In this document: in pieces, positions 26,706 to 54,594 of the stretch
How the letters are laid out: each line of letters begins with the position of its first letter
Position numbering within the stretch: the first letter of the stretch is position 1
Position numbers and translations under genes: made by a program
DNA from: Burkholderia sp. WP9
GTDB lineage: Bacteria > Pseudomonadota > Gammaproteobacteria > Burkholderiales > Burkholderiaceae
DNA length: 64,000 nt
Reading direction: 5' to 3'
NCBI RefSeq assembly: GCF_900104795.1
Contig: NZ_FNTG01000002.1
Span: 186,001 to 250,000 of the forward strand
Notes under the pieces: model-generated
The model's input: the letters and a program-made list of their open reading frames with translations, nothing else
Told to the model about the DNA's origin: nothing
The model's database searches: none

Positions 26706-26954
26706 ATGAAAACGCTCGTCCTCAAAGACCTGGCCCGTACCGAAGACCTCGACCGTGCGGCGTCGCTATCCATTCGCGGCGGCATGGCTTGCCTGACTCG
26801 TGAAGCGCCGTCCGTGTGCCCCGGCGAATTGCAGCCGGTGTTCGTTCGACGCGGTTGGAATCCGTGTCCGCCGGTTCATCCCGGCTGCGGACCGGTCTAC
26901 TTCCCGTTTGGCAAGCTGCCGTCGCATTCGGAACCGACCATCGTGCCGCTGTAA
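26706..26954 (+). CDS. Small Cys/Pro-rich peptide with double-glycine-type leader
   Basis: 82 residues, ATG at 26706 with GGAG and good spacing. Residues 1-26 (MKTLVLKDLARTEDLD, then IRGG) look like a double-glycine leader: hydrophobic positions, an acidic ELD/DLD motif and a GG at 25-26, as used by peptidase-containing exporters. Residues 27-82 would be the core, with four Cys (29, 38, 54, 61), nine Pro and several aromatics. No exporter, maturase or immunity gene is adjacent. It may be a secreted peptide, a RiPP-like precursor or a Burkholderiales-specific small protein. Confidence 0.6.
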   Translation: MKTLVLKDLARTEDLDRAASLSIRGGMACLTREAPSVCPGELQPVFVRRGWNPCPPVHPGCGPVYFPFGKLPSHSEPTIVPL

Positions 26955-27050: not shown

Positions 27051-28439
27051 CTATCGGCTGCTGTCTCGCTGCCTCAGTGTCTGGCCGCTTGCACTGTCTT
27101 CGACCAGCCAGCCGCCGGCCATCAACACCTCACGCAAACGGTCTGCTTCGGCCCATTGCTTCGCCGCGCGTGCTTTTGCGCGTTCGTCCGCCAAGGCCGC
27201 CATATCCGCGGGAATCTCCAACGCATCATCGTCTCGCCAGTCGGCGAGACCCAGTCCGAGCACGGCATCGAAGCGGTCGACGGTCGCCCTTCGCGTCGCC
27301 GCCGGCAGATCGCTTCTGACCACATCCCATAACACCGCGAGCGCGCGCGGCAGGTTCAGGTCGCAATCGACCTCGGCCTTGAAGCGCGCGACGCTTTGGG
27401 CGTCCGGTGTGCCGCCTTGCGGCCATTTCACATAGGTTCTGCGCAAACGGTCCAACGCGGCTTGTGCGGCGTCCAGCGCGGCTTCGTTGAAACGCAGGCT
27501 GCTTCGGTAGTGCGCCCCAAGACATAGATAGCGGTATGCGAGCGGATCGTTGCCGCGTTCGATCAACGTCTGCAAGCGCACGAAATCGCCGCTCGACTTC
27601 GACATCCTGCCCGCGTCCAGCAAAAGGAAATGGCCGTGCATCCAGAAGTTGGCAAGGCGCGTGCCGTGGCGTGCCTGGGTCTGCGCGATCTCGTTGCTGT
27701 GATGCACGGGAATGTGATCTTCGCCGCCGCAATGAATGTCGAACCACGGCCCCAGATATTTCGCGGACATCGCCGAGCACTCGATATGCCAGCCGGGAAA
27801 ACCGCGCCCCCACGGGCTTTCCCACTCCATTTGCCGGGCGGCGCCGGGCGGGCTGAACTTCCATAGCGCGAAGTCGGTCGCGTGCCGTTTTTCGCCAGAA
27901 GCAACACGTTTTCCCGCCTGCAAGCCCGCCACGTTCAGACGCGCCAGATAGCCGTAATCATCCTGCCGGCTCGTGTCGAAATAGATGCCGTCGACAGTGC
28001 GATACGTGTACCCGTTGCGTTCGAGATCCGCGATAAAGTCGATCTGTTCGGCGATGTGATCGGTCGCGCGGCACCAGACGGCAGGCTCCAGCAGGTTGAG
28101 CGCGCGCCAGTCGTTCATGAACGCCGCCGTATACCGCGCGGCGATCGCCCAGGCCGACTCGCCGGTGCGGCGGCTGCCCTTCTCCATCTTGTCTTCGCCT
28201 TCATCCGCATCGGAAACCAGATGGCCGACGTCGGTGATGTTGACCACATGTCTCACGGTATAGCCGTCGAGCATCAACGCGCGCCGTAGCACGTCTTCGA
28301 ACACGTAGGTCCGGAGATTGCCGATATGCGCGTGGTCGTACACGGTCGGCCCGCAACCATACAAGCCGACATGATCCGGATGAATCGGCGTGAATTCGCG
28401 CACGGCGCGCGACCAGGTGTCGTACAGACGAAGCGGCAT
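27051..28439 (-). CDS. cysS: Cysteinyl-tRNA synthetase
   Basis: 462 residues, ATG at 28439 with GGAGG six bases upstream. The class I signature reads HIGN rather than HIGH (YGCGPTVYDHAHIGNLRTY), and the KMSKS loop is RMSKSSG. Zinc ligands are apparent in YGCGP, HIECSAMS and HHSNEIAQ, and FPGWHIECSAMS is the cysteine-binding region. The insert DVGHLVSDADEGEDKMEKG marks a branch different from the E. coli enzyme, so a paralogue elsewhere in the genome is possible. It charges tRNA-Cys in the cytosol. A 5' leader with a Cys-codon ORF and terminator precedes it. Confidence 0.9.
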   Translation of the reverse strand: MPLRLYDTWSRAVREFTPIHPDHVGLYGCGPTVYDHAHIGNLRTYVFEDVLRRALMLDGYTVRHVVNITDVGHLVSDADEGEDKMEKGSRRTGESAWAIAARYTAAFMNDWRALNLLEPAVWCRATDHIAEQIDFIADLERNGYTYRTVDGIYFDTSRQDDYGYLARLNVAGLQAGKRVASGEKRHATDFALWKFSPPGAARQMEWESPWGRGFPGWHIECSAMSAKYLGPWFDIHCGGEDHIPVHHSNEIAQTQARHGTRLANFWMHGHFLLLDAGRMSKSSGDFVRLQTLIERGNDPLAYRYLCLGAHYRSSLRFNEAALDAAQAALDRLRRTYVKWPQGGTPDAQSVARFKAEVDCDLNLPRALAVLWDVVRSDLPAATRRATVDRFDAVLGLGLADWRDDDALEIPADMAALADERAKARAAKQWAEADRLREVLMAGGWLVEDSASGQTLRQRDSSR

Positions 28440-28481
28440 GAGATTCCTCCCGGTACTGGGTGGTCAAGCGTGTTCAAAAGC

Positions 28482-28512
28482 AAAAAGGCCACCGGTCGTG
28501 TGACGGGTGGCC
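28482..28512 (-). terminator. Intrinsic terminator/attenuator in the cysS leader
   Basis: On the minus strand GGCCACC (28512-28506) pairs with GGTGGCC (28493-28487) and is followed by five T (28486-28482). The hairpin lies 43 nt before the cysS start codon and downstream of the cysS promoter and the leader ORF, which is the position of a transcription attenuator. Its 5' arm can also pair with 28566-28570, giving an alternative fold. Confidence 0.75.
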
Positions 28513-28543
28513 TCAGGGATACGGACGTGTGCAGATCGACTCG

Positions 28544-28621
28544 CTAGGCGCAAGCTCCCCTCGGCAGGCCGTAACAGCATGCGCGCAAAGAATGCGGACG
28601 GGAAAGGAGAGTAGCGTTCAT
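28544..28621 (-). CDS. Cysteine-codon leader peptide of cysS
   Basis: 25 codons, ATG at 28621 to TAG at 28544-28546. Cys occurs at residues 15, 16 and 24 (tail RACCYGLPRGACA): three of 25, against about one per cent in typical proteins. It lies wholly between the predicted promoter and the terminator before cysS. No ribosome-binding site is visible, and the predicted transcription start falls close to the A of the ATG, so it may be leaderless. Ribosome stalling at the Cys codons when charged tRNA-Cys is scarce is the proposed function. Confidence 0.65.
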   Translation of the reverse strand: MNATLLSRPHSLRACCYGLPRGACA

Positions 28622-28628
28622 GGAAACG

Positions 28629-28658
28629 ATGCTAACGCGGGTTGACGGGTCCGGTCAA
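28629..28658 (-). promoter_or_regulatory. Predicted cysS promoter
   Basis: -35 TTGACC at 28658-28653 and -10 TTAGCA/TAGCAT at 28635-28629, spacing 17-18 nt. The start point would be about 28621-28623. The -35 lies inside a small inverted repeat (TTGAC, 7 nt, GTCAA), possibly an operator. Confidence 0.5.
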
Positions 28659-53560: not shown

Positions 53561-53788
53561 CGTGAGGTCCATCCGTAGGAGTTGCACGTGCACGCCGGCG
53601 TGTTTTTGTGTGTCTGTCTGCGCGTCTGCGTGCATCGGCCGGGTAGCCGGGTAAGCGGCGCGTAAGCCCAGCGAGCCAGAACGACAACACAACACGGGGA
53701 CGAACGACGGGTTGCCGCGACAACAGAAAAACAGGAAGCGGGAATGAGATCATGAACGCACCGCCGCATCCCCGCGGCGTTCGCCCTT

Positions 53789-54050
53789 CGTATTCTGGCC
53801 GGTATCCGGGCTGGCGAAAGCGCCGCTTCCCCTTCCCGGGCGAGTGATTTCTCGCCCAGTGGTGATATGCCGACGCGGCCTTGCGCGTGGACATCGAAGC
53901 CGGCTCCGTGGCGCTAAGGAACTTACCGTAGCATCACATTTCGCTTACCGTTGCGGGGGCAGCACAGGTTGACCCGATCCATGGCAGGCGGGCACCCTGT
54001 TTCCCGTTTAACTGCATGCGCACGAGCGCGCACACGAGCACCAAAGTGCG
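53789..54050 (-). promoter_or_regulatory. Cobalamin riboswitch of the cobW-cobN operon
   Basis: On the minus strand the conserved blocks occur in order: GTTAAACGGGAAACAGG, CTGTGCTGCCCCCGCAACGG with GTAAGCG (the B12 box), then GCCAGCCCGGATACCGGCC. Outer-stem arms CGCACTTTGG and CCAGAATACG pair imperfectly and set the ends. The expression platform must lie between 53560 and 53789. High adenosylcobalamin is expected to repress cobW and the genes behind it. Confidence 0.9.
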
Positions 54051-54138
54051 TGCGAGTGTAGGCCCGCGGCCCGGTGCCGTCAAGGAAACGCAAGCCGCAA
54101 GCGCTTATCGGGCGGGACGCCATGTGCTATCGTATGCG

Positions 54139-54368
54139 CGCGTTTGGTGCCCGCACATGCATTCGCGTGTGCAGTTAAACGGGAAACAGGCCGCGCTTTA
54201 TGCGCTCAACCTGTGCTGTCCCCGCAACGGTAAGCGACCTGCGGCGCGATGTCTTTCAGCTCGCGCCGCGCATGCGTTTTTTCGATGCCACTGTCCATGA
54301 CATTCCAACGAATGCGGACGGGAAGGCAAAGCGCATGAGGCCGCCAGCCCGGATACCGGCCAGACGCG
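54139..54368 (+). promoter_or_regulatory. Cobalamin riboswitch of the cobA operon
   Basis: Conserved blocks GTTAAACGGGAAACAGG, CTGTGCTGTCCCCGCAACGG with GTAAGCG, and GCCAGCCCGGATACCGGCC are present in order. The outer stem CGCGTTTGG (54139-54147) pairs with CCAGACGCG (54360-54368). A small hairpin GTTCCC/GGGAC near 54474-54487 could be part of the expression platform. It faces away from the other riboswitch, 88 nt apart. Confidence 0.9.
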
Positions 54369-54594
54369 GAGGCGGCGAACCTCAGGGCAACATCACGCCG
54401 CCGGCCGCCGGAATCCGCGAGGGACGGATGTGAAGGCGCTGAAGCACGACGTGGCGCATCCGTTCGTCGATCCGTTCCCAAAGGGACCGTGACGAGCCGC
54501 GCGTTTCGCCGTGCCTGAATCCGTAGCACTGCATGCCCCCAAAGTCCGTCATCCGGCGCGCCTGCGCGCTTCGCCCCTTTCCGCCCGTCACGAC

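Follow-up and report, generated by a model that had tools for sequence, protein, structure and literature searches.

A gene for cysteinyl-tRNA synthetase (CysRS) in Burkholderia sp. WP9 is preceded by a short reading frame with two adjacent cysteine codons and by a terminator, an arrangement that raises two questions: whether transcription into the gene depends on translation of the short frame, and in which direction such a control would work. The locus lies on the minus strand of a 64,000 nt stretch of contig NZ_FNTG01000002.1 (positions 186,001–250,000), referred to here as the window. A preliminary description of the sequence had proposed ribosome-mediated attenuation, and this is supported by the conserved tandem Cys codons, the variable N-terminus of the encoded peptide, the spacing between promoter and ATG, the terminator, and a pairing that excludes it. 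We put a probability of about 0.88 on a ribosome-mediated transcription attenuator in which the leader responds to the level of charged tRNA-Cys and an auxiliary CysRS gene, cysS2, is the target. The features of the locus are:

28629–28658, minus strand: sigma-70-type promoter found by promoter scan, with −35 TTGACC at 28658–28653 and −10 TAGCAT at 28634–28629 (18-nt spacer); an alternative −10 on the same strand, TTAGCA, lies one base upstream of TAGCAT and gives a 17-nt spacer
28621–28544, minus strand: leader peptide ORF of 25 codons (MNATLLSRPHSLRACCYGLPRGACA), with Cys at 15, 16 and 24, predicted to be leaderless
28579–28574, minus strand: tandem Cys codons 15–16 of the leader ORF
28564–28582, minus strand: hairpin 1:2 over the Cys codons (GCATGCT...GGCCTGC, one mismatch), from covariation and a permutation test
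28549–28565, minus strand: anti-terminator 5′ arm (region 2), inside codons 19–25, from duplex prediction, the sequestration model and third-position entropy
28510–28523, minus strand: anti-terminator 3′ arm (region 3), which shares bases with the foot of the terminator 5′ arm, from duplex prediction and a permutation test
28476–28512, minus strand: intrinsic terminator, GGCCACC (28512–28506) with GGTGGCC (28493–28487), then TTTTTGCTTTT, the T-rich tail reaching 28476
27051–28439, minus strand: cysS2, auxiliary cysteinyl-tRNA synthetase gene (462 aa, ATG at 28439; TIGR00435, PF01406)

The promoter, the 25-codon Cys ORF and the terminator with its T-run, all reported in the preliminary description, are present at these coordinates on the minus strand. 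The leader ATG (28621) is seven nt past TAGCAT, and a separate terminator-like stem (about 28739–28706) lies between the upstream cytochrome oxidase genes and the leader promoter. No Rfam family corresponds to the leader (at gathering score none matches it in the window, and a threshold of E up to 10 gave three chance matches). Elsewhere in the window are two divergent cobalamin riboswitches, at 53780–54060 on the minus strand and 54128–54378 on the plus strand (58 and 74.7 bits).

Conservation of the leader among cysS2-type loci

Contigs were searched for cysS2-type loci, and the best 80 of 577 confirmed stretches were used; 104 loci gave 94 non-redundant upstream regions after removal of ten exact duplicates. 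Omitted from the 94 are L002 and L003, which are not cysS2, and L026 (G273:C3), in which cysS2 breaks off at residue 164, next to a transposase-like ORF. A leader was counted where an ATG-initiated ORF of 8–45 codons with tandem Cys codons lay upstream. Such an ORF precedes the gene in 58 of the 94 non-redundant cysS2-type loci among the matches listed and is missing from the other 36, while the same test on the upstream regions of housekeeping cysS genes returned none (0/21). Among the loci examined, the leader is restricted to the cysS2 type and is not found with housekeeping cysS. Of the 25 cysS2 genes in the family sample, 24 are complete at the 5′ end, and the leader is present in 23 of those 24.

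Loci set by hand to no leader were L066 (no −10-like element before the ATG), L104 (a single Cys codon), and L083 and L097 (TTG starts only); L054, which keeps the leader DNA and has lost the start codon, was counted in the same way. Leader losses comprise L054, L008, where the leader is gone and a stop lies inside cysS2, and an Oxalobacteraceae-type group without the leader. Upstream of cysS, L091 and L104 have short ORFs with one Cys codon each, an ATG that closely follows a −10-like element, and a terminator-like stem; these are possibly one-codon versions of the switch.

A −10-like TANNNT element is found 6–8 nt before the ATG in 57 of the 58 tandem-Cys ORFs among the matches listed. It occupies positions −13 to −8 in 53 of 57 leaders, ending 7 nt before the ATG, and is one base nearer (6 nt) in the other four; TTGAC starts at −37 or −36 from the ATG in 54 of the 57, at −34 in one, and is absent in two. 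Transcription ordinarily starts 6–8 nt past the −10 element. The conserved element is so close to the ATG that a leaderless mRNA is expected, and we infer from the sequence that the transcript likely starts at, or within about two bases of, the leader ATG. The preliminary description had called the leader of the window 'perhaps leaderless', and with this predicted start point the property is likely a conserved trait. In Burkholderia cenocepacia, 72 genes are described as having a start site exactly at the start codon, the main text of that report naming no cysS (PMC4603805).

Searched with an RNA model of the leader, the WP9 genome gave one strong match (E 1.1e-18) and no second true copy, under strict filters that may miss weak copies. 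The same search of 300 genomes of the order and 398 of the phylum, with filters equally apt to miss weak copies, returned four matches outside WP9 at E 0.01 or better, of which only L112 is a true leader, again preceding a cysS2-type gene. The same leader before other genes was considered and rejected, as none of the weak matches (L109, L110, L111, L113, L114 and L115) contains a tandem-Cys ORF where the model aligns. No leader precedes L116 or L117, two more remote genes of the cysS2 type from the class sample.

An alignment of the leaders of relatives had been named in the preliminary description as a check on its proposal, and in it the Cys codons, the terminator and the alternative pairing recur, while the N-terminal half of the peptide varies. 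Exactly 25 codons are present in 43 of 57 leaders, and the first Cys is codon 15 in 49 of 57. Across the 43 aligned leaders, Cys15 and Cys16 are invariant (43/43), amino acids vary most at codons 2–6, codon 14 is GCA in 40, and the stop is TAG in all 43. Codon 19 is CTG, ATG, GTG or CGG in 42 of 43, with G as third base in 42 of 43, the third positions of codons 21 and 24 are invariant, and third-position entropy is low at codons 19, 21, 24 and 25, inside the predicted anti-terminator arm. Since the third positions of codons 19, 21 and 24 are near-invariant, the constraint would be that of an RNA helix, and the third Cys would be explained by the anti-terminator. Cys24 was considered as a third control codon and rejected: it sits in the anti-terminator arm, and the codon itself varies, with TGC in 37 leaders, CGC in five and GAC in one. 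It is probably not a control codon and looks like an RNA constraint.

These patterns bear on the possibility that the leader peptide is itself functional or arrests the ribosome by its sequence, as a sensor of thiols or metals might do, with Cys serving as residues and not as a demand on Cys-tRNA. The C-terminal part of the peptide, ACCxx(L/M)PxGxCV, is indeed conserved beyond Cys, as such a function would require; however, the conservation follows nucleotides, at third positions that all lie in the predicted anti-terminator arm, codon 24 varies, and so do the N-terminal residues, which makes a functional peptide quite improbable.

Competing helices and the direction of control

Helices were examined in an alignment of 54 leaders (A1), with L078, L089 and L106 omitted both from it and from duplex prediction, and by comparing cognate with permuted arms in 31 leaders less than 90% alike (20000 permutations; L078 and L089 omitted). 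Covariation is clear for the hairpin and the terminator, and weak for the anti-terminator. Hairpin columns 18–27, the third base of Cys15 and its partner, are C-G in 25, U-A in 20, U-G in one and unpaired in seven of 53 rows; one inner pair (columns 16–29) is unpaired in 33 of 53, and the cognate arms beat permuted ones (z −6.49, 0/20000, n = 31). Terminator columns 107–127 switch between G-C (28) and A-U (25) over 53 rows, 99.4% of the stem cells pair, and the cognate arms are again preferred (z −7.39, 0/20000, n = 31).

In the window, the anti-terminator pairs are GCC (28565–28563) with GGC (28512–28510), GGGGA (28560–28556) with TCCCT (28519–28515), and TGCG (28552–28549) with CGTA (28523–28520). 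An anti-terminator overlapping the terminator 5′ arm is predicted in all 54 leaders examined, so that the mutually exclusive folds of the preliminary description are borne out as a prediction for each of them. The particular helix drawn there, 28570–28566 with 28513–28509 and 28561–28558 with 28518–28515, is possible, and its outer GGCCT pairing is the best duplex in four of the 54 leaders, that of the window among them, but the pairing of most relatives begins roughly a codon closer to the 3′ end. Cognate anti-terminator arms average −17.74 kcal/mol against −16.28 kcal/mol for permuted arms, with 5 of 20000 permutations as good (n = 31), 42/20000 when 12 leaders are used and 151/20000 with 9. 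The part lacking the GCC/GGC core has no significant cognate preference (4249/20000, n = 31), and a fixed-column count of six anti-terminator pairs gives 93.0% of cells paired and no covariation, because the register varies between lineages. Altered but complementary arms are found in single lineages: GCCATGG/CCATGGC in L010, GCCATGGGG/CCCGTGGC in L011 and GCCGGAGGG/CCTTCTGGC in L013.

The position of the terminator also bears on translational control, by which the leader ORF would affect translation of cysS2 in the manner of the leaderless poly-Cys ORFs of mycobacteria; the passages on Mycobacterium smegmatis report that leaderless Cys ORFs there act through downstream translation (PMC9031893). 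In the cysS2 loci, however, a conserved stem with a T-run closes the leader well before the gene (A1, 54 leaders), the leader stop and the cysS2 ATG being 104 nt apart in the window, and we give translational control a very small chance.

The direction of an attenuator was addressed with a sequestration model, in which the leading edge of the ribosome lies 12 nt beyond the A-site codon's first base and the transcript stops short of the terminator 3′ half. Averaged over 57 leaders, modelled capture of the terminator arm is 0.73 when the A site is still five codons short of the first Cys and 0.96 once it reaches that Cys (above 0.5 in 56 of 57); it then declines to 0.55 at the second Cys and 0.34 at the codon after it. 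The fall moves with the assumed footprint, by one codon for every 3 nt (9 or 15 nt; 31 leaders), capture at the first Cys falling to about 0.6 at +15 nt (31 leaders), and three RNA ends give the same pattern (31 leaders). On average, the control codons are placed to leave the anti-terminator free in the model, the leader of the window and L078 being without a sharp fall: capture in the window's own leader is 0.6 or more until the A site is at codon 21 and 0.09 at codon 22, and L078 has no fall. In L089, capture is 0.13 at its first Cys.

Because capture is high with the A site at the first Cys and has dropped two codons later, stalling at the first Cys points to readthrough: cysteine starvation should allow readthrough, and completion of the peptide should lead to termination. 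The preliminary description had cautioned that a ribosome stalled at Cys15/16 would cover part of the anti-terminator and so obscure the direction. Since the anti-terminator starts about one codon further 3′, this worry is mostly removed by the mean values of the model, with the leader of the window less sharply resolved. Equilibrium folding of the full leader was dropped as a test of direction, as the terminator is favoured wherever the ribosome is placed (mean at least 0.91) and positions are not discriminated; for this reason kinetics must matter, and on the model the switch must be a kinetic one, in which the order of synthesis decides.

In the attenuation mechanism that we propose, transcription would begin with the A of the leader ATG or with a neighbouring base. 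With plentiful Cys-tRNA, the ribosome would pass codons 15–16 and cover region 2 (codons 19–25), leaving region 3 free, and the terminator would form ahead of cysS2. With Cys-tRNA in short supply, it would wait with codon 15 in the A site, blocking the Cys-codon hairpin and leaving region 2 open to pair with region 3 while region 4 is still to be transcribed; RNA polymerase would then read through, and more CysRS would be produced.

The folding energy of the leader of the window alone is unremarkable (z −0.83), so the case rests on conservation and not on stability. That value would suit a chance ORF before an ordinary constitutive promoter and a stray terminator, but such a coincidence is scarcely credible, as the conservation data already contradict it, with a fixed geometry kept over several families and no counterpart in the 21 housekeeping control regions.

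The auxiliary cysS2 gene

The preliminary description was right to call the gene product a cysteinyl-tRNA synthetase (394.6 bits to TIGR00435, cut-off 340; 301.8 bits to PF01406); it is, however, not the housekeeping enzyme of this genome but a second, auxiliary copy, 39% identical to it. The distribution of cysS2 is patchy: the gene was found in 25 of the 299 genomes sampled from the family (E 1e-100 or better) and, WP9 counted, in 3 of the 274 from the class. All 25 cysS2-bearing family genomes also have a housekeeping-type copy, 79–100% identical to that of WP9. Among the matches listed, some Chloroflexota sequences are closer to cysS2 (64–66%) than the WP9 housekeeping enzyme is, and leader carriers belong to the Burkholderiaceae, Comamonadaceae, Alcaligenaceae, Chromobacteriaceae and Neisseriaceae, with single Pseudomonadaceae and Pleioneaceae records.

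A quick CysRS tree was built from 94 rows, with SH-aLRT support only, the housekeeping row on a very long branch, and two short reading frames (L027, L075) omitted. One group of 62 rows (support 82) holds 54 of the 56 leader-bearing rows, the other two, L078 and L089, forming a pair outside it. Achromobacter rows are nested within a group of Burkholderia, Paraburkholderia and Trinickia (support 100), which suggests that the cysS2 gene and its leader moved together; the auxiliary gene seems to travel with its switch.

Several further observations concern the gene and its surroundings. One genome carries a third CysRS gene (G270:C22:259768-261129), 45% identical to the housekeeping copy, and seven plasmid records (H1–H7) have cysS2-like genes of 72–81% identity on large secondary replicons of Burkholderia and Paraburkholderia (0.49–3.5 Mb). 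In the window, an ORF of 82 aa (26706–26954, plus strand; MKTLVLKDLARTEDLDRAASLSIRGGM..., with a Cys-, Pro- and Gly-rich end, ...VPL) is convergent with cysS2 and has no NCBIfam or Pfam match, and ORFs with similar ends adjoin cysS2 in L004, L005 and L007.

Residues C29, C221, H246 and E250, which we take to be the equivalents of the zinc ligands of Escherichia coli CysRS, are conserved in all the CysRS rows compared (56/56 with the leader, 37/37 others). The idea that cysS2 encodes a zinc-independent replacement enzyme was rejected on this ground, and a zinc-sparing role is unlikely since the ligands are kept in all rows. Near this presumed zinc site an extra Cys, C237 (HCGGEDHIPVHH), stands where the housekeeping enzyme has Gly; 55 of the 56 leader-bearing rows have it, as do 34 of the other 37. 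A protein that goes by the name CysS2 is mentioned as part of a Zur-controlled operon in Cupriavidus metallidurans (PMC10882993).

If attenuation operates as proposed, the locus poses the question of why a second, distantly related CysRS should be made only when Cys-tRNA is short. The logic of the control would fit an enzyme kept in reserve against cysteine shortage or against a block of the housekeeping enzyme. Further, and more doubtfully, attenuator and cysS2 might together form a mobile, self-contained back-up module, normally silent and induced only when the housekeeping CysRS fails, for example through a natural inhibitor or thiol stress, by analogy with the inducible auxiliary tryptophanyl-tRNA synthetase (TrpRS) of Streptomyces. 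Were this tentative reading true, the patchy spread would be a sign of some natural CysRS inhibitor, as yet undiscovered, in soil and plant habitats.

Comparison with known systems

Classical attenuators (trp, his and pheST) have control codons and regions that pair as 1:2, 2:3 and 3:4, and the cysS2 leader shares this plan; it differs in the amino acid sensed and in a predicted start at the 5′ end that replaces the upstream ribosome-binding site. A leaderless trpL is present in Sinorhizobium meliloti. The T-box leaders of Firmicutes cysS respond to uncharged tRNA-Cys and so resemble the cysS2 leader in placing a tRNA-Cys response before cysS, whereas the latter is predicted to sense through translation; the T-box covariance model has no match in the window at gathering score, nor among three chance matches (E up to 10). 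In Streptomyces, an auxiliary, antibiotic-resistant TrpRS gene is reportedly under ribosome-mediated transcriptional attenuation, in work of Vecchione and Sello from 2010. That system is likewise a second aminoacyl-tRNA synthetase gene under an attenuator, but it concerns tryptophan, not cysteine, and drug resistance is a stated role of that enzyme. Leaderless mycobacterial poly-Cys sORFs are said to respond to cysteine (Canestrari and colleagues, 2020), and share with the cysS2 leader contiguous Cys codons in a short ORF that is leaderless, by prediction in the present case. The passages on the mycobacterial sORFs describe regulation of downstream translation (PMC9031893), whereas the cysS2 leader has a terminator and an anti-terminator, and a CysRS gene as its target.

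The preliminary description knew of no attenuator for cysS in Burkholderiales, and no description of one was found in the literature searched, many subscription papers lying beyond its reach; a similar motif, uORFC-8-2, has however been predicted upstream of Rhodobacterales cysS, with readthrough proposed on shortage of Cys-tRNA (PMC8632094). As described there, uORFC-8-2 is, like the cysS2 leader, a short AUG ORF with tandem Cys before cysS, with the Cys codons in the first of two stems and a terminator with a U-run. The tandem Cys are usually at 14–15 in uORFC-8-2 and at 15–16 in the cysS2 leader, and the motif is described from Rhodobacterales only, whereas the carriers of the cysS2 leader belong to beta- and some gammaproteobacterial families. 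Compared by description, a second cysS, a leaderless start and a supported anti-terminator are features of the cysS2 leader that the passages on uORFC-8-2 do not mention (PMC8632094). Relative to that motif, the additions are the auxiliary gene, the predicted leaderless geometry and a defined anti-terminator. The cysS2 leader would thus carry Cys-sensing attenuation upstream of cysS beyond Rhodobacterales, into several betaproteobacterial and some gammaproteobacterial families, with an explicit anatomy and a predicted leaderless leader peptide for which the direction of control is testable.
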